The position numbers and the translations under genes were made by a program. The notes beneath the pieces are model-generated. The model was not told the origin of the DNA. It saw only the letters and a list, made by a program, of their open reading frames with translations, and did not search any database. Positions 1-64,000 of a stretch of 64,000 nucleotides of DNA are shown one piece after another (positions within the stretch are counted from its first letter, which is position 1; each line of letters opens with the position of its first letter). The stretch lies in the NCBI GenBank assembly GCA_963971285.1, contig OZ020247.1:27620047-27684046 (forward strand). Reading direction: 5' to 3'. The stretch is from Astropecten irregularis. Taxonomy: Eukaryota > Echinodermata > Asteroidea > Paxillosida > Astropectinidae.

Positions 1-17037
<17,037 letters not shown>

Positions 17038-22442: not shown

Positions 22443-23556
22443 AGTTTGGCATGACAGGTTCCTTTCATATAATCAACAACTTATACATATAATACTTGAA
22501 GCTATGCATGGTGGAAGTACTAAAAGGAAGGTAGGTTTGCGGTGACACCATGTTATCTCTTCTGTGAGAGTGTGTGGTTCTGAGAAGAACCAGTGGTATT
22601 ATCTCGGCTTTCCGAACAGTGTGCTCTGTTCATCCTCAGGAGAGTGATTTATACATAATTAAATTTTTATGAAAATTTGTCAAAATTAAGGCTGTGTATA
22701 GTTTCAACTATTATTAAAATGCGCATCAAAGACATCTTGATTACGTACAAGTTTTACACGTGTGTATGCTAGATTCAAGCCTTGTATATTTAAGTTGGAA
22801 AGATTCCAGGATGTTATTATAATGAAGATCACTCGTTGGTATTAAGTATTCACACGTCATTAATAAAAGCAACATAAATGGTTTAAACACATTAATCTCA
22901 GTATCAGAATTCAAGCACTACATTTCCTTCTTCCACTGCTTTAGTTGTGAAGGAACCAAATCTACATGTAGGATATTAAATATCAACAAAACATAATCTA
23001 CACATGCACAGAGTGATAATGAAATCCACTTTACATTTCACTGAAAAGAAAAGACGGCATCCCTTACATAGAAAATGATCGTAGCCTGACACCAGAGAAT
23101 AGGTGGAGCAACAAGCAAATCAAACATGGATGAATTTTTACTTCACTTCTAGTAAAGTTCTTTCACCTTTACTTCTACAATGCAAAACTGAGCTGGATAA
23201 GGGCTTCTCCAGATGTACAAAACTAGACTGCGGCACTCTTTTTCTTTGTTGAAACCTTATTCATGGCGCATCCATTTTGTCACCTTCCTTGTATACCCTT
23301 TGGAAAAGATAATACCAATTCTAAACAGACCAGACTATTTTGAATCCAAGCATCGGTTTGATTGCACTGCTTGGAATGCAGGATGGATGCACCATGAATA
23401 AGACCTATTCAGGAGATTTTGAGCAGATGAAATGTTGTCTCTGAATAAAAACTGGATAACCTCATGACATCTAGTGACTGTCATTTAGTTACATAGCAGG
23501 CCACATATTCCCTTATACAGATCACAATAGTTATGCTTTAGGTTTTATTTCTAGCA

Positions 23557-26500
23557 CTAACTTTTCTCAATTTGGGGCAAGATCTCCGTGATAATTCCTG
23601 TGCCCAGGGTGATGCGACCATCGCGAAGTGTGAATCGTTGACCCACTTCAAGAACCATTTGCTTCTGCAGGGCGAGAGTCAAGTTGACATCCTCCCCTAG
23701 TCAAAAGAACAAAAACGCGAGTCATTTTAAGCTTTTCAATCATGCAGAATGGGTTAATGTGCTACCAGAATTTGAGATCCTTATTGCCATAACCTTCCCC
23801 CATAACAAACCAGAGATGAAATCTGGAAAGCTGGAGAAATCCCACCGGCTGGAAAGAGTCTATCACTCGAGGAAAGCTTGTTAAATGATTGTACTCAATT
23901 TACTTGCAAGTTCCTTTCACCCCTTTTGGAGGGTTGATTTTGTTTCAGTGGATGGTTAATAATTAAAGTGAATATAAAATGCAATATGGACAATGAAATC
24001 AAAAGAATCAATATTTGATTTCAATCAATTTTTTCGCATTTTTTGTTCAGCTTTCTAATCCTCATCACGAATAAATTTTCATTCTAAATTAGGGAGATGT
24101 AGAGGAACTTACCTGGCATAACCATTTCCTTGTCTTCAGGCAGGGTAATTCTTGCTGAAATATCCCAGGTATAGGAGAACATAACTGGAGTGAAATTACT
24201 CACAAATGGCTTGTGCCTTCCTCCTTCCTCTTTGGTCAGAATGTACACCTAAATACAACACAAGAACAACTCAGCAATTAAACTGTTACTCAAGTTCATA
24301 AGGCCTAAAAAAAAAATTGTTGTGTTGCCCTCAGCGACCGACCGTAAAATGCCAAAACTTTGGGTCGGGATTTTTTTTTTCCCTCCGAGTCCTTAAGTAT
24401 AAAAACTCACCATTTTTGACAGAAAATGTAAGATTTAGCAGTAAAAAAAGCATGTCTCCTCAAAACGACCCAAGACCGTTGATTTATAAGCCCTGGTGAC
24501 CATACATCCTGTATTTATTCTTAAATGTTAAGTCGGCAAAAAAAAAAAAAATAATAATAATAAATCGACCGACCGACCCAAAATTTTTATTTTTCCAGTT
24601 GAGGGCAACACAACAATTTTTTTTTAGCCTAACTATGGGCTTTACGAAAACTCGGCTCCGACTCCGGCTTTATTTCTTACATCCATTTTTAAGTAACAGA
24701 TAGGGCCTATACAAATCAAGGTTTTGGGGTACGGCTTTGACGTAGATCTCTATTTCGAACAAGAAAATGGAACGTCAACCTCAGGGAAAATTCACAACCT
24801 GTATTTTCAACCTAAGGCCAAACAAAAAAAATTGTTGTATTGGAGTAACGGAGGTTTGGAAAATAGGGTAGGGCGGGCGGATTTTTTAATTTTTTTATTT
24901 AATTTTTCCTGTATTAGATGCTTTTTTTTCCTGTATATCACAGTATTTGACGAGTCAAATAAAGACAAGAAATTACATAACAACTTTAACCAGTCTGGTT
25001 TCCATCTTTTGCTCCTTTTAAGCTTTTAATCTGCATACAAATTTGCGATTTTTTTTTTAAATTATTTTTTCCCCCCGATTTTTATTTATAAATTTTTTTA
25101 TTAATTTTTTTTGGGTTTAAAATGTCTACGGTCGGGGCATATTTTTGGGTCGGGCGGGTTACGCCAATACAACAATTTTTTTTTTATGGCCTAAGCCCAA
25201 GCTTAATTCATCGTTTCGTAAAGGGCCCTATGATCTGGAAGAGAGCCATCAATGAAATGTGATAATACTATCTTCCTCTAACTGTGCAAACAATCAGAAG
25301 ACTTGGATAGGATACGTCTACAGATATCTGCCTTTGAAAATCTTGTCAAGCTAATGTGCATGGTGACTTTCCATTGATCCTGTGATGGCGGGTCATGTTT
25401 GATAAGGGTACCATACTAACCTGTGCCTTGATATGGTTGTGTGCTTGGTATGTGTTGGGTCTATGTATTGATAAGGGTACCATACTAACCTGTGCCTTGA
25501 TATTGTTGTGTGCTTGGTATGTGTTGGGTCTATGTATTGATAAGGGTACCATACTAACCTGTGCCTTGATATTGTTGTGTGCTTGGTATGTGTATTGATA
25601 AGGGTACCATACTAACCTGTGCCGTGATATTGTTGTGTGCTTGGTATGTGTTGGGTCTATGTATTGATAAGGGTACCATACTAACCTGTGCCTTGATATT
25701 GTTGTGTGCTTGGTATGTGTTGGGTCTATGTATTGATAAGGGTACCATACTAACCTGTGCCTTGATATTGGTGTGTGCTTGGTATGTGTTGGGTCTATGT
25801 ATTGATAAGGGTACCATACTAACCTGTGCCTTGATATGGTTGTGTGCTTGGTATGTGTTGGGTCTATGTATTGATAAGGGTACCATACTAACCTGTGCCT
25901 TGATATTGTTGTGTGCTTGGTATGTGTTGGGTCTGCATAACATCATCCCTCTCTTGATCTGATCTCTCTTGACGTTTCTTACGAGCGTTCCCATCTGATC
26001 TCCAGCCTCTCCCTTATCCAAGATCTTGTGGAACATCTCGATACCTTCACAGAGGAACGAGAAAGGATACACAGTAAGATTGGAGACCCTGGTCTACCTT
26101 CATAATAATAATTATCCTTACTGTTAGTCAGCTGGGTTGCTGAATTGCAAAGGATGCGGCAACAACGTGATCAAGTTGTCGGCGCGGCGACACCCTTGGC
26201 TGCCAGCACACTTCAACCCATTATGATCACGGAGCACAGCCTGAGATCGAAAGTGTTTGATTTTTGTAGAGGGAGGAAAACCGGACAACCCGGAGAAAAA
26301 CCTTGTAGTATAGGAGAGAACCAACGCACATCTCTACTCACATATGACCCAAGCCAGGATCGAACCAGGGCCACATTGGTGAGAGTCGAGTGCCTAACGC
26401 ACTTGCCACCCATGCCCCCAAAGTCTGCCTGGTAGAATATGTAGCCAATTACAGGAATGGTCAGCTTACCAGTGATAACAGACTTGATCTTGGTATCATG

Positions 26501-29500
26501 GCCGATGAATTCAATTTCTTCATTCTTGGTGATGAACCCTCTTTCAACTCGGCCAGATACAACTGTGCCTCTTCCTGGAAAAATCAAACAGAATCAATGA
26601 AATATTTTTGCTACATTTAATGGTTTAACACAAGAAGGGGTGAATGACAAAAGTTTGGACAGGAATGGCTTGAAGACTGAAGAGTGATCTTAAAGGGGAA
26701 ACTATACAATATATACTTGGGCCAACGACCAGTCGCACCAAGGCAATGACCAAGGGCAGGAAGGCAATGACCAGGGGCATCGAGTCGAAGACCAGGGCGT
26801 CAAGGCAATGACCAGGGGCATCAAGGCAATGACCAAGGCCACCAGGGAAATGACCAGTGGCATCAAGGCAATGAGCAGGGGCACCTAAGCAATGAGCAGG
26901 GACACCAAGGCAATGACCAGGGGTAACAAGGCAACAACCACGTGCAGTGTGGCATGCGCAATGACCAGCGTCTAGTCATTAACCTATACCTTCTATTGAG
27001 TAGACTTGCTCAACTGGCATGAGGAAAGGTTTCTCCATATCACGAGGTGGAAGTGGAATCCACTCATCAACAACCTGGAGGAGTTTCTTGACAGATTCAA
27101 CGCCAATCTCCGGACTCTTTCCCTGTTGGATGAGAAAAGAAATAACTGAAGGACTTGAAATGGAGAGACATCCCTCGACTTGAGCAGAAAAAGTTATCAA
27201 AGCCAAGACTAGAACATGTAACTAGTGGAAAAGTATACCAGTGGCCTAGGTGTTTCATACTAGTAAGCAATCTTTGCTTTCAATGCATTGCCGTTCAAAA
27301 GATTGGAACCATTTCCAGGGGTCGATTTCATGAAGCCCTACGATAGATCATAACTCAATTAACGATCGATGGGTTATCCTTTGTAAGAGGTTACAATCCT
27401 TCGTAACAAAGGATAACCCATCGTTTTCCAGATAGGGCTACAATGCATCATAAGTCCTACGATTGATAGTAAGTTACGATGAGTTTGGTGAAATCAACCC
27501 CAGTAGAGATCCTCTCTATGAAGACAAATCAAACCCTACCTCCAGAGCACACAATGCTGAGCCGATGACAATGGGTGTATTTTCCCCATCATAGCCATAC
27601 TCAGACAGGACATCTCTCATCTCAAGCTCAACAAGCTCCAACATTTCATTGTCTACTGCATCAGCCTTGTTGATATAAACAACGATGTGATCTACACCAA
27701 TCTACAAAGGAAAAAACAACAACAACAAATAAAGAAATCTTCTCAAAATCAAAAACACTGTGGGTCGTAGATTCTTTCATATTGTTACATGTAACAGATG
27801 ATTCTTGATTGATCATTACCTGCTTAGCAAGTAACAGGTGTTCCCTTGTCTGAGGCATCTGTCCATCCGTTGCAGCTACTACTAGGATCGCTCCCTCCAT
27901 CTGAGCTGCTCCTGTTATCATGTTCTGTCAGGTAACAAGATTCAGAGAGATTAGTCAAACCCAAGATTGTCAGACGTGATAGAGGGCGGCAAACAGACCT
28001 GCTCGGTATAGGAAGCAGGGAAGTGGAGAGGAAGGAATAATAACAATAATAATAATTTGGGAGGGTGATCATCCTTAATTGCAGCTGGGATGCTGAATTA
28101 TGAAGGATGGTGCTACACGTGACCGAGTTGCTGGCATTCATGGGCGCCCTTTGGCTACCAGCCACATCAACCCATGATCACGGAGCACAGCCTGAGATCA
28201 AAAGTGTTAATGATTTTTGTGGAGGGAGGAAAACTGGAGAACCTGGAGAAAAACCCTCGTAGCATAGGAAAGAACCAATGCACAACTCTACTCACATATG
28301 ACCTAAGCCGGGATTGAACCCGGGCCACATTAGTGAGAGGCAAGTGCCTAACGCACTTGCCACCTATGCCCCCCTATGTAACCTATGTTCCATTACCTTG
28401 ATGTAATCAGCATGACCTGGGCAGTCAGTATGAGCATAGTGTCTATTAACTGTCTCATATTCCACATGTGCAGCGTTGATGGTAATACCACGTTTCCTCT
28501 CCTCTGGAGCTTTGTCAATCTCATCATACTTGTGGTACTTAGCACTGCCCTCGTCAGCAAGAACTGAAAGATGATAAGGTTCAGAGCTTACAATCATTTT
28601 AAGAGGCATCTTGATTAGGAACATTCCTCCATCTGTCAAAATCAAACACTACAGTATCCTCAAGGTACAATGGGAGACTTTTGAGAACCGGTCTTCTAGT
28701 CAATAGCCCATGCGCATAACAACGCCTGCATGCTCACAATGAGAGACTTTGGAGAACGGGTCTTCAAGTCAACAGCGCACGCGCACGATATTGTGAGCAT
28801 GTGCGCGTTGTTTTGCGGGTGCGTGCGCGCTGTTTAGACTAGAAGACCAAGTCTCCCATTGCGTGCATGTGCTCTGTTGACTTGAAGACCCGTTCTCCAA
28901 AGTCTCCCCCATTATTTTGACTTAGTTTGGAAAGTAACCCCAAGTCTGGGCTCTACAGTACTTGGCAAGATTTCACCAAGCAGTAAGATTAATCTTAAGA
29001 TGAGCTGCCAGAATCACCACAGTGATTTGTATTGTGACATCAAACTTTGTAATTAGGATCGATCAAAATTTCAGATTAATCTTAGGCCTCTGGATCCTTC
29101 ATAATACCTCAAGTACATCCCTATGACACGTTATTTGGATTAAGACCAACACAGGTCTTTAACCCAAGAGTAAAGTCACAGTGACTGAGCTCTACAGTCC
29201 TGGATCCTTCAATACAGTGCAATATTACATACTCAGGTTAATCCTGTGTACAATTTACATCAGTAATGAGCAACCAGCGCATCATTCACAGCAGTGTACC
29301 TTTTGTTATGGCCGCAGTCAGTGATGTTTTGCCATGATCTACATGACCGATGGTTCCTATGTTGACGTGAGGCTTCCGACGCTCAAATTTAGCCTTAGTC
29401 TCCACAGCATACAGGGGTGCAGTCACCCTGGTAAAATGCCTGGACTGTAGCAGACATGGCTTGGTGTTCTATCAACAACCGAGAAAGGATTCAGAAAGTG

Positions 29501-49075: not shown

Positions 49076-52000
49076 ATGGCTACTTCCATGATAGAGACTG
49101 AGGGAGCTGCTTCAGGTAACAAGGAAGATGAAGATATTTATATACCAGTAGATGAAGATGACATTGACTCTACTGATGCAGAAACAAGCTCATGGGAGAG
49201 TGAACCCAACACCACCAGGAGTTCCAGACAGTACCATCCGATTAAAGGTGAACAGACAATCTTAGATGTCCATGACAATGCCGATAGAGATGATGATGAT
49301 GAACAACTCCTGTTTAATGGGGACTATATTCCTGGAAATATGGGCACCGAGGATCAGGAATTGCTGTCCTCACAGTATTTAAGGAGTACGTTTGGACTTG
49401 ACGATGCAGAGAGACTGGATAGTCATCATATTATTCAGGATATTCTAGATTCCAATGAACAAACAGATGAAGATGCTGAATTCCAAAATAGAAGCCAGAT
49501 GAACGGTCAGGCTGCTGGAAGTAGCGTTGATGAGGCTGGTGATCATTTCCCAGAGAAAGATGAGCAAACTGACGGGGATGTTATAGAAGAACTTGACCTC
49601 ACTAAGGAACCCAGATCCATGTTTGACGGAGGACCAGGTGGGATGCCACAGGCCCAGTTTGTATTTGTGCCGTCACTTCAGTTTGGAGGAAGTTCTTTTG
49701 ATTCTCTGATGATGGGTCTGCTATCCAGCGATGGCGATGGAGTAGAGAATGATGCAGATGTGTCCAGCCAGTCAGAAGCAGAAGGAGCAAACCAATACCA
49801 GGAGCAACTCCAGGATCTTCCCAAGACGACTGGAGGAAATGAACAGGAGAGATGGGAGTACCTGTTTGGGATGCTCGAGCAGCAGCACAGGCAGCAGGTG
49901 ATTCTCCAGAGGGAGCATCATGAGCGACAGGTCAAGCTCTTGAAGATACAGCTTGCTCGTCTGACTGAGGAGCAGGAGGACCTCATCACTAAGCAGCACC
50001 AGGAGCCCCTTGGTCCAAAGTCAACACCAAACAACAAAGAACATGAAGTTATCACTGATGATAATTCTTCCGATCAAGAAGGAAGCCTTAGTCTCAAAGA
50101 TTCCCAGAAACAACTGAGAAGAAGTCCAAATGGACGAGAAACATCCAAGACCCAGGACGGGACAGGTGTGTTGGCAGATCATTCATCAAGAGATGGCAGC
50201 AATGAAGACTCAAATTCTGCTTCAGAAGACAGTGAAGGAACCTTAGAGGGGTCCATTGAAGGCGCCAGTGAGACACTAATGACAACTTGGTCTGACGTGG
50301 TTGAACAGAAACAAGCAGAGAATGAGAAAGAGATGACGTCCAACAAGGAGATGGGGATGTTGAAGACAGACATACAAGATAACAAGTCCCATGTTTCACA
50401 GGCAGACGACGACCGCTTCATTGCTCTGCAAAAACACTTTGCTAAACAGCAGCAACAGTTGGAGGAGCAATACACAATCCAGGTAAGAGAAGAAATTATG
50501 GGACTATGAATGATGGATGAGTTTATGAATTGGCAAAGGCAACAACTTATATCCTTCACAACTGATTTTCTTTTAGAAATGCTTGGAGTTAGGAGGGCCT
50601 GACCAATCTTAGCTACCTCTACCGTCCAACCCCCCTCCTTTTGTACCGATCCTCTCATCCATTCATGTGTGTTTCTTTCACTTGCATGTTCTTCTCCTTC
50701 GTCATTCAGCCTTTGAGAAAGATCCTGCTAGGATCGAAACAAGTCAGGCCCTCCTAACTCCAAGCATTTGATATATTTCAGGTCATTTTGGCTGATGAGC
50801 AGTTTGCAGCAGTTTATTACAAGTTGTATTTCTTTTAGCAATATTAGACTTTTAAAGCATCTTTTAAATGTTGGCCACCAGGTGAGGCATATGCAGCAGC
50901 AGTGGTCTGGATTGCAGCAGCAGCAGCAGGAACAACAAGAGATTCTCCGACACCTTCTATCACAACAACAGGAGAGAATCAATCAGCAGCACAGGGAGAG
51001 GATGTCTCAAGTTCCACTTGACCCAAGAGACCACGATTTAAACGGTGAGTTAGTCAATATGAACCCTAACCCTCTACACCTACCGTACAACACAAGAGCT
51101 GCTTACCACACACTACCACAGTCACCACAGGGGGAATGGATATTAACCCTTACCCTCTGCACCTACCACACAAGACAAGAGCTGCTTACCACACATTACC
51201 ATAGTCTCAACAGAGGGACTGCATATTAACCCTAACCCTCTACACCTACCGTACAAGACAAGAGCTGCTTACCACACACTACCACAGTCACCACAGGGGG
51301 AATGGATGTTAACCCTAACCCTCTGCACCTACCACGCAAGACAAGAGCTGCTTACCACACATTACCACAGTCCCCATATGGCAACTGGATCATAAATACA
51401 TAAACACATACTACACTGCGGTGTGTGTGGTATGCAGGATACTACAAATGTGGTATGGAGGTTGGTTAGGGTTAATCAAACATGCTGTTTTATTTCAATT
51501 CTTTCAGGGTAAATGAGTGGCACTGAAAGTGAACTGCATGAATTACCTTGATGTGATTTTATTTATTTTGTTCTTGTTTCCCAGGAGCTGAGAATAGAAG
51601 TAGCCCAACATCTGATGATACTAGCATGTCATGTTCTGACTTCACTTATTGGAAGCAGCCCGAGCATGATACCTATAAGGCTCTCCCTGACCTATCAGCT
51701 GATGATGTTACTAGAGATCAGGTACTAGACATCTGTTTCTACCGTATTCTTTCTGCAAATAAGTACAGATGTCTTTCTTATGGATTTTAGTTAAGACGAG
51801 AGAGGTTCACACATCGTCAGGTTCCTGCTGCAGATGTTGAAGCTTACTGATGAAGTCAATGGACTGTCAAAATGGACAAGTTTTCAATTCTAGACATTTA
51901 ATAATAATAATAATAATGCAGGATTTATTATGCGCACATTTTCTGGATAATACCATGCAAAGGCGCAGGTCTGAGAAGGTAAAAGATGGAAAGCAAGATT

Positions 52001-58966: not shown

Positions 58967-59840
58967 GTACACCAGTCTATTACCTTCTACTAATAATTAA
59001 CCCTTATTATTAATATGTGTCCAACAGTATGACATGAATGTTAAACTGATCATTTCTGTACCATTTCTTATGTTTGTAATATTCCTTTACTTGTCTGAAT
59101 TATAATATTTTTGTGCCACGTTTGCCAAACTTCCTGGCTAGGGGATAGGGAGCTGCTAAATTGTCAGGATGTAGTGTGTTTGGTGTAAGTGGTACGTTAG
59201 TTAGCACGAAGGGAAAGCCTGTTTCAGTGACTTTCTTTCATGGCACAAGCTTAGAGCATACACTACTACTAACAGATGCTCAACCTGAGCACAGGCTGCC
59301 TTTAACATGGGATTGGTGACTCAGTTTATTCAATCTCTGTTTCTTTAAAGTGCTTGCCCACTACATTGACAGAAAACGATGACAGCAACAAGTTATGAAA
59401 ATAAAAGATGCTTTTCTCGATTCTTATGACTTTAAATAGAGGAACTAGTGTCCGATTATAAAGGCTGATTCATGCTGCTGAAAATGACATGATTGATTTG
59501 ATCGGATAGGCGTTTTGAGTCTGTAAGTTTGCAGACATTTTCCTGCTCATTTTATCATCTGTGATGTAGTAGTATGAAAAGGGGGTTATCATTCCAAACC
59601 CCATTTTCACTCACTCCACTCCACATTTAACTGCCACATTCAAAATAGATTTCATCTCGCCAATTTTCACCCCCCATTTCACAAATCTCAAAATATCCAA
59701 AATCAAAATCAAAATGCCTCATTTTATCGCGAAAAAAAAAATGTTGTAAATTTAAAAAGTTGTAGATTGGAATGTGAAAAAAAATGAGAAAAAATAGAAA
59801 TTTTTTTTATAAAATATTAATTTATATTATTATAAATAAG
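58967..59840. other. MPHOSPH9 intron and left flank of the polymerase element
   Basis: Unique-looking intron to about 59570. From about 59577 composition shifts to AT-rich with A- and T-runs, so the left boundary of the inserted element probably lies between 59570 and 59760. Its terminal repeat cannot be confirmed without the other end. Confidence 0.4.
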
Positions 59841-62800
59841 ATGGATCGAGAGAATAATCAAACGCCGCGTCGTGTAATTGCGAAGGGATATAACAAATGG
59901 AAAAAAAGAGAACTAGAAAGATTTGTTGAATCTGAAAGAATTCCATTTATACAAAGCCTTGGATCTACTCGAAATGATTTGATACGTGTAATTGAAAGTG
60001 CGGGGCCTGTTAGACCAAGAGGATATAAAAGTTGGAGTAAATCAAGGTTAGAAATTTATATTATACAAAATGATTTGTTTAATTTATTAAACCGACGAGT
60101 AAGAAATACTCGCCAACATTATATTAGTTCGATTAAAAGTTTTCAAAACCAATTTTTAAACTTAAATACAAAAAAAATTGAATATCTTAGAGAATTAACA
60201 AGAAGATTTAACCTTGATGTTACACCAACTGGTTATAGGGGACAAATAATAAGACGAGACTATGTCAAAGCAATTAAAGATTATGTTGCACCGACAACAA
60301 TTAACGAAGCAATTAACTGGAGAGGAACTAGACGTTTTAGAAACAATTTGATAAATTTAGAAATGAGGCCACAATCAAATTACCGAGATATAACAATATT
60401 TTTCAATCAGCATCGTGGGGATATTGTAAAAAAGGTAAAATCAATGTTTAGAGAACATGGAGCCTTTAAGATTCAATTTGCTATAAAAATAACCTATGGG
60501 AAAACAACAACGGGAAGTCTTATTGATTTTACTGTTAGAAGTGGTCAAGGACTTATTTTAAGTGAAAGTGAAATAGTAAATGAGGTAAATAAAAATATTG
60601 GAGAATTAATACACAAAGTCGAAAATAATAATTTACAAGATTCGGATTTAGTTTTAGATAAAATAGAAGTGTTTTATATGAATTTTGGTAGATATATCTT
60701 TGCTAATGTTGGTTCTTATCTAGAATTACCTCCATTTATTAAAAACAAAAATGCTGTTGTTAATGTGTTAAACAAAGACGATCAATGTATTAGATGGGCA
60801 ATAAGATCAGCATTAGAACTGTATACTGACAAGGTTAAAGAAAATAAGAGGAAAAATCCGGCTTATCAAATTAAGGAGGCAAGACCAAGCACTTATAAAT
60901 TAGATGATGGTTTAAACTTTGATGGGATAGGTTTTCCAACCCAAATAAATCAAATATCTAAAATTGAACGGCAAAACAATTTTAATATTAATGTGTTTTT
61001 ATTAGATTGCGATAATGATAAAGAAGGAGATTTACCTACTCCTCATCGTATCTCTGAACAGGAAAACGATATTTCGATAGATTTATTGTTAGTTCATAGG
61101 GATGGGAAGAACCACTTTTGTTGGATCAAACATTTTTCAGCCTTATTTTTTATGGCCACGACTAAACATAAATGTAAATCATATTACTGTAGGAGATGCT
61201 TATCGCATTTTCAAAAAGAAGATAAATTAAAATTGCACGAAGAAATGTGTAAGGGAATAGTAAATCATCCATCACAAGTAGTACTTCCTGAAGAAGATGA
61301 AAACATTTTACAATTCAAAAATTTTAAAAATATACAAGATGCACCATTTGTGATTTATGCTGATTTTGAATGTATCTTAGAAAAAGTAAACAAAAAACCA
61401 ACCGCAAAATCACAAATATTAGCTATTCATAAACCTAGCGGATATTCTTACGTTGTGGTAAGATATGATGGAAAACTAATGAATCAAAAAACGTATAGAG
61501 GAGCTGATGCCTCTAAAGATATAATTTATTCTTTGTTTAAAGAACAAGATGAAATTAAAAAGATATTTGATAATCCCAAAGAATGTGAATATGTTGATGA
61601 AGAAATAATAAAAAATAGTAACCGTTGTTGGATTTGTGAAAAAGAAATAAAAATAAATTCTGATCAAATGTGTCAATGTACGAATCCTAAAAAACCTAAA
61701 ACCAAAGAAGAAATATCAGCAAAAACATTTATAAATGCTAAAGGATATACAGAATACCTGTGTTTAACGTGCAATAAAAAAATTAATAACTTTAGAAAAG
61801 TTAAAGATCATTGTCACATCACAGGAAAGTTTCGTGGAGTTGCACATGCACATTGTAACCTAAAACTTAAAATAACAAATCGAACACAAATACCGGTCAT
61901 TTTTCACAACTTAAAAAATTATGATGGGCATTTGATTATGCAGGGGGTAGGAGCATGTATTGAAACATTAAATAAAACGATTAAGAAAAACGAAACTCGA
62001 AAGAAAAAAATTGAAACTACTCTATCTAAATTGTTAACTAAACAAGAAAAACTTGAAAATCATAAGAAAGAACTGCGAGAAAATCTTAACAAAGAAAAAA
62101 AAGAACGTGAGTGTTTTAATGAGTTACGTCGAGAAATAAGAAAAGATAACTCAAAAATAAAATTATTTGAAGAAAAGTATGGAATGAAATTTTCAAAAAG
62201 CAAAAATATGAAACTCAATCAAATAATGATTGGTTTTCAACGTGAATGTGTAGAAAAAATAAAACTAAATAATAAAAAACTAAAACTAAACAAAGACAAA
62301 TTAACAATGATTAAAGATTTATGGTTAAAAGAAGAAGATGAGATAATGTATCATCAAGCAAAAAAAAGTGTATTTGATAATATATTTTGTATTCCTCAAA
62401 ACAGTGAAAAATATATTTTAATTGGGTTAGGTGGATTACGTTTTATAGATTCTTTTAATTTTATGGCAGAGTCACTCGATAAATTAGTCAAAAATTGTCC
62501 TAAAGATGAGTTTAAGTTATTAAAACAACATTTTAACAATGATAATGACATAACGCTGTTATTACAAAAGGGTATTTATCCTTATGAATATATGAATTCT
62601 TTTAAGCGTTTTGAAGAACAGCAACTCCCACCAAGAAAATTATTTTATAGTCATTTAAAACTCGAAGATATCACGCAAGAAGAATATCAAAGGGCTCAGG
62701 ATGTTTGGAAAACCTTCAACTGTAAAACTTTGGGTGATTATCACGATTTATACGTGACCACCGATACGTTATTATTAGCCGATGTGTTTCAAAATTTTAG

Positions 62801-64000
62801 ACACACCTGTAAAAAAACCTATCGTCTAGATCCCGCGAATTATATCACCGCCCCAGGGTTAGCCTGGGACGCGTTATTAAAACATAGTAAAATAAAACTA
62901 GAACTTTTAACGGATATAGATAAATATTTATTTTTTGAAAAAGGAAAAAGAGGTGGTTATTCTAGCGTAGGACAATGTAGACATCACGAAGCAAACAACA
63001 AATATTTAAAAGATTATGACTCTAAGAAAGAATCGAGTTATTTACTTTATTTAGACGCAAATAATTTATACGGTTGGGCGATGAGTCAACCGTTACCCGT
63101 TGGCGGTTTTGAATGGTTATCAGAAAACCAAGTTAAACAATTTTCAACCGATCATATTTTAGGTTTAGAAGATGACTTTAAATATGGATTTATGTTAGAA
63201 GTTGATCTAGAATATCCCAAGAAACTTCATGATTTACACAATGATTTACCTTTAGCCCCGGAAAACATAACCGTCTCTAAAGAATGGTTTAGCCCGTATC
63301 AAAAAGAATTACTCTCGAACAAAGTAAAAGCCTCGTGCGAAGATAAACTCATTGCAACATTATATCCTAGAAAAAAATATGTCGTTCACTATAAATCCTT
63401 AAAACAATATTTATCGTTTGGATTGAAACTAACTAAAGTACACCGCGTTTTACGATTTGAACAAAAAACTTGGATGAAATCTTACATCGATAAAAATACT
63501 CAACTTAGAACATTAGCAACCACGGATTTTGAAAAGAATTTTTATAAACTAATGAACAATTCTGTTTTTGGTAAAACGATGGAAAATGTTCGAAATAGAA
63601 TAGATGGTAAGATCCTTATCGATGATAACACCGAAAAGTCGGCTAAAAAAGTTGCTAAACTTGTTAGTAAACCTTCATTTAAAACAGCAAATATTTTTAA
63701 AAATTTTAATATAACTTTTTTTGAAAAGTATAAAACAAAAACGGTTTTAGATAAACCCATCTATTGCGGTGTTAGTATTTTAGATTTAAGCAAATCTTTA
63801 ATGTATGATTTTTATTACAATCACCTGAAGAAAACTTATAAAAATAATATCAAACTCATGTATACTGACACAGACAGTTTATTATGCATCATTAATACTG
63901 ATGATGTTTATGATGATATTAAAAAAGACACGAGTCTCTATGATTTATCAAATTATAAAACCAATCATCCATTATACGACCCAATAAATAAAAAAGTGAT
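59841..64000 (+). mobile_element. Polinton-like element fragment: protein-primed family B DNA polymerase
   Basis: An intronless, AT-rich reading frame running to the window edge (at least 1386 codons). Order of parts: a long N-terminal region, a C2H2-like zinc finger, 3'-5' exonuclease motifs, a Cys/His cluster, a long charged coiled-coil insert, and polymerase motifs A, B and C (the last as YTDTDS). I checked codon phase at three distant landmarks and it agrees, so this part looks whole. The family is the polymerase type carried by Polintons/Mavericks and related virus-like elements. Capsid, integrase and ATPase genes would lie beyond the window. Base composition differs sharply from the neighbouring host exons. 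Good preservation suggests a recent insertion. It seems to sit in an MPHOSPH9 intron in the same direction. Confidence 0.85.

Follow-up and report, generated by a model that had tools for sequence, protein, structure and literature searches.

The window, the whole 64-kb stretch of DNA that was analyzed, contains no N and carries on its minus strand a gene for mitochondrial EF-Tu (TUFM), nine exons of which could be located. Eight of them (Ea to Eh) lie between about 29381 and 24113, and the C-terminal exon extends from about 23696 to 23560 with a TAG directly after it; leader exon(s) upstream of Ea were not located. The exon that ends in the repeat array described below (GIEMFHK...NNIKAQ, 25893..26044, 152 nt) matches mitochondrial EF-Tu and is bordered by an AAG acceptor before 26044 and by the sequence CAG/GTTAGT (donor 1) after its last base at 25893. 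It is joined in frame, via ...NNIKAQ, to the next exon (24113..24248), which has a TAG acceptor before its first base at 24248 and a GTAAGT donor from 24112. Both junction positions, 25893 and 24248, coincide with those of the preliminary description. The number in the name "exon 9" given there is not confirmed: this is the seventh of the nine exons located.

Two further features were seen in and near the gene. Copies of about 290 bp at 26129-26419 and 28082-28373, 84% identical and each in a TUFM intron, look like a dispersed repeat that is perhaps tRNA-derived. About 1 kb past the TUFM stop, an Rfam match to the Histone 3' UTR stem-loop lies at 22552-22596 on the minus strand, scoring 34.1 where the gathering threshold is 34.

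Anatomy of the repeat array

At the end of the 25893..26044 exon, TRF reported a tandem repeat with a period of 69, 8.1 copies and 93% matches (25390-25934). Read on the minus strand, a full unit comprises 42 nt of exon (AGACCC...CACAG) and 27 nt of intron (GTTAGT...ACAT). TRF and the mapping of the donors thus bear out the proposal that the 69-bp unit joins the exon end to the start of the intron and places eight donors in a row. Unit 1 (25866..25934) holds the true exon end of 42 nt and 27 nt of intron, with the first intron base at 25892. It is followed by unit 2 (25797..25865, donor at 25823) with an A>C change at -15, unit 3 (25728..25796, donor at 25754) with A>C at -17, unit 4 (25659..25727, donor at 25685), whose exonic letters equal those of unit 1, and unit 5 (25590..25658, donor at 25616) with A>C at -8. 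Unit 6 (25532..25589, donor at 25558) measures 58 bp, 11 bp less than the others, and shifts the frame. Unit 7 (25463..25531, donor at 25489) again has the exonic letters of unit 1, and unit 8 (25394..25462, donor at 25420) carries the same -15 change as unit 2 and diverges after +22. The spacings between successive donors are accordingly 69, 69, 69, 69, 58, 69 and 69.

All eight donors read CAG/GTTAGT, and a 29-nt core from -7 to +22 is invariant. The variable positions within units number three (-17, -15 and -8), all of them A/C and all in the exonic part. The donor sites had been described as near-identical; their cores are identical throughout, and unit 8 differs from the others after +22. 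This pattern of variation fits copies that are recent or homogenized, while the 58-bp unit and the -15 variant common to units 2 and 8 suggest past turnover. When the last 60 nt of the exon were aligned to the downstream intron, the score was 84; none of 200 shuffled introns reached at least 84, the best of them scoring 27. The motif GACCC occurs at both edges of the array, and on the intron side it may represent a ninth unit that has degenerated. An origin by microhomology is not claimed from this motif, as shuffled 20-base edges shared at least 5 bases in 502 of 2000 trials.

Donor strength, reading frames and protein consequence

U1 pairing energies, computed with the U1 5' end, were -10.1 kcal/mol for each of the eight donors. 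These are the best of the 89 GTs between exon start and acceptor, the next being -9.2 at 24410. The donors of the other TUFM exons gave -5.6 to -9.8 (Ea to Ef) and -12.1 (Eh), and of the 3676 GTs on the minus strand of the entire window, 25, the array's eight included, reached -10.1 or better. By U1 pairing, all eight copies therefore look competent. With core and energy the same at every copy, the core gives donor 1 no advantage, and upstream context and exon length might explain donor choice where the core cannot. The purine fraction of the 70 nt before unit 1 was 0.69, compared to 0.53 and 0.51 for units 2 and 3, the only others compared. An exon ending at donor 1 would measure 152 nt, one ending at donors 2 to 8 between 221 and 624 nt.

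RNA structure was considered as a means of masking or exposing a donor and was set aside. Units 1, 2 and 5 folded alone were no more stable than their shuffles (z of 0.85, -0.15 and 0.99), and RNAplfold accessibility was low at all copies (0.0007-0.027). Since the other TUFM donors cover a range of 0.0002-0.076, which includes these values, accessibility picks no donor; donor 1 was slightly above most copies, with donor 6 higher at one of three settings. Recursive or nested splicing within the array was likewise rejected: the CAG preceding GTTAGT lies in a pyrimidine-poor context (fractions of 0.37-0.42 at three copies). The best AG in the array had a pyrimidine fraction of 0.63, and the seven true TUFM acceptors 0.63-0.84.

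Translation of exon, array and next exon showed that donors 1 to 5, when joined to 24248, leave the frame open with 0, 23, 46, 69 or 92 added residues, whereas donors 6 to 8 shift the frame and meet stops. This agrees with the earlier reading of the frames, as does the insertion point, which lies just before the first residues encoded by the 24113..24248 exon. The substitutions in units 2, 3 and 5 each alter a residue in the frame of donors 2 to 5, and that in unit 8 alters one in the shifted frame. As all four changes alter residues, there is no sign of coding constraint, four being too few for a test. By our own estimate (1/3 x (61/64)^9), about 1 in 5 duplications of this kind should yield a unit that is divisible by three and holds no stop, so that an open frame alone is weak evidence. 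A coding array kept in frame by selection is thus not needed to account for these observations.

The donor-1 product (97 residues, from the array exon and the next exon) aligned without gaps to 1d2e, a mitochondrial EF-Tu that we take to be the bovine protein. Query and chain spans were equal in 59 of the 60 PDB sequences listed, which belong to the EF-Tu family, include many near-duplicates and are mostly bacterial EF-Tu; the one unequal span was that of 1jny, an elongation factor 1-alpha. With the donor-2 product, 58 of 59 rows showed the PDB match broken into two separate stretches. The exon junction presumably lies close to the start of EF-Tu domain 3, in the first strand of that domain, and an insert of 23 to 92 residues at this point would probably disturb the fold.

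Exon-end copies elsewhere in the window

Each exon end was compared with the sequence next to it. For 16 exons, the terminal 60 nt at either end were aligned to the adjoining 688 nt outside the exon, with 200 base shuffles each, and the 3' end of a further exon (the 5404 exon) was aligned to 90 nt of its own intron. The scan covered two minus-strand regions, with some exon edges approximate and one "3' end" being a stop codon. A copied 3' end was found in 2 of the 17 exons tested, the TUFM array exon and the 5404 exon, and in both cases none of 200 shuffles reached the score; for the next-best 3' end, 6 of 200 did. Among the 5' ends (n = 16) the lowest counts were 4, 9 and 10 of 200 shuffles, which is not strong given 33 tests. 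A near-range self-comparison of the window yielded 12 clusters, one of which (5257-5404) is the copied exon end.

This second case is a decayed copy of 72 nt (5257..5328, minus strand) within a 113-nt intron (5333-5221) of a gene that we take, from its sequence, to be carboxypeptidase-like. The stretch 5328-5257 copies exon bases 5417-5347; the copy stops 13 nt short of the exon end and has no donor. Among 986 pieces of 113 nt drawn at random from the window, none reached its alignment score of 73, the best scoring 25. The exon before the intron ends at 5334, and the exon from 5220 keeps the frame (...ASADGFTSESQ...). A second copied exon end in the same window indicates that boundary duplication recurs in this genome, and the 5221-5333 intron is possibly a stage of intron gain or of a boundary shift.

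At 51057-51376, an 83-bp array of about 3.9 copies starts 12 nt downstream of 51045, the putative donor in a plus-strand frame; the donor lies outside the repeat, so the boundary is not spanned. Minisatellites with units of 122 and 114 bp (7747-8416 and 12427-12792) lie between exons of carboxypeptidase-like genes and include no copy of a neighboring exon end in the flanks scanned. A long open frame at 59778-63998 reaches the window end and appears to resemble a DNA polymerase of type B, as in Polinton-like elements.

Relation to known systems and likely use of the donors

Tandem repeats of comparable structure, termed mirage minisatellites, are described in two amphioxus studies (PMC3087553, PMC3902484) for Adh3, the globins BflGb6 and BflGb9 and troponin C, with similar repeats in PGBD5. 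Their units span the exon-intron boundary, and many of them, though not all, hold splice signals; those of Adh3 measure 10-72 bp. Both studies describe the mirages as not interfering with regular splicing. In PMC3087553, mirage clusters are reported as length-unstable, BflGb6 occurring in two haplotypes with 6 and 3 units and the Adh3 mirage showing somatic instability, and mirages are considered possibly general in cephalochordates. Like these repeats, the TUFM unit spans an exon-intron boundary, its copies keep their splice signals at equal U1 energy, and more than one gene is affected, although the second case is decayed and lacks a second donor. It differs from them in its host gene and in having eight units with identical donor cores. 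We assign the TUFM array by its structure to this rare but already described kind; the cases considered from these studies are all from cephalochordates, and the amphioxus data serve as an analogy. Two cases within a single 64-kb window would fit a cephalochordate host.

A study on human segmental-duplication genes (PMC2812944) reports variable internal tandem repeats, some at an exon-intron boundary, that can alter gene structure. There the repeats are taken to have created introns or extended exons of recent paralogues, whereas TUFM is a conserved housekeeping gene. In the Rogers model, as cited in PMC3087553, tandem duplication across an intron-exon boundary copies splice signals. Of intron gain by this route the TUFM array gives no sign, its acceptor-like sites being pyrimidine-poor, with the best of them level with the lowest true TUFM acceptor. 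Most of the 5221-5333 intron consists of copied exon sequence. A literature search on TUFM and minisatellite found no TUFM mirage. In viral_contigs, an exact 23-base pattern had 0 matches and the 97-residue query gave 3 pattern matches with no confirmed relative.

The reading that we favor, at a probability of about 0.72, is that of a mirage minisatellite formed by duplication and expansion, with donor 1 the source of nearly all mRNA. Tandem duplication would first have affected a short stretch spanning the 5' splice site of a single TUFM intron, and slippage or unequal exchange would then have enlarged the array until the same strong donor stood in eight copies. For nearly all mRNA the spliceosome would most likely use donor 1, copies 2 to 8 being spliced out as the first part of the intron. 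Donor 1 should be preferred because it alone stands directly after the exon body and gives an exon of ordinary length, as exon definition would have it; it combines the gapless protein match, the shortest exon and the highest upstream purine content of the units compared. By analogy with the amphioxus genes, the TUFM transcript probably splices normally despite the array, and the unit number likely varies between individuals. The array itself would be near-neutral, with at most minor products leaked.

Competition for U1 among the donors is possible, and the strongest rival, which we consider improbable though ahead of the others, builds on it. Several donors would be used, mRNA from donors 6 to 8 would enter nonsense-mediated decay by virtue of the stops in their products, and the array would reduce TUFM output to a level set by the unit number. 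The equal strength of the eight donors by U1 pairing, matched by none of the other 81 GTs, speaks for such leakage. Work on human genes (PMC5585400) further indicates that SRSF1 can favor the donor nearest the acceptor and hnRNP A1 the opposite; a placement effect of the SRSF1 type could here point to donor 8, and thus to frame-shifted mRNA. Against this stand the normal splicing described for amphioxus mirage genes in PMC3087553 and PMC3902484 and the expectation that selection should act against any marked loss of so essential a protein. A related view, which we hold unlikely, takes the array for an allele-variable splicing rheostat: U1 on many identical donors would shift the choice along the array, and unit number would tune productive mRNA against in-frame extended and frame-shifted, decayed TUFM mRNA.

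An expansion in the assembly, with fewer copies in the genome, is about as unlikely as the rheostat. Assemblies readily go wrong in this way at tandem repeats, an amphioxus globin mirage is noted as aberrantly assembled in a supplementary caption of PMC3087553, and the substitutions inside the TUFM units are all A>C. Yet individual units have substitutions of their own, one is 11 bp shorter, the end of the array diverges, one change is common to units 2 and 8, and an array of about 540 bp can be spanned by a single Sanger or long read. Least probable, in our estimate very much so, is that the length isoforms suggested in the preliminary description are functional, with donors 2 to 5 inserting their 23, 46, 69 or 92 residues close to where domain 3 begins. 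The open frames and strong donors would permit them, but nothing favors their function: the PDB matches show no net length change at the insertion point in all but one of those listed, the unit substitutions replace residues, and a stop-free unit in frame is expected at the frequency estimated above.

Eight donors that share one 29-nt core within a conserved gene amount to a natural competition experiment, in which the donors are distinguishable only by position, exon length and flanking context. The array thereby bears on the roles of exon definition and acceptor proximity in donor choice; the two rules point to different donors, so that nature here sets one cleanly against the other. Together with the decayed copy in the neighboring gene, the window may show two stages in which splice-site duplications arise and fade, a view that bears on intron gain. 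If the host lies outside the cephalochordates, the known range of mirages would widen.
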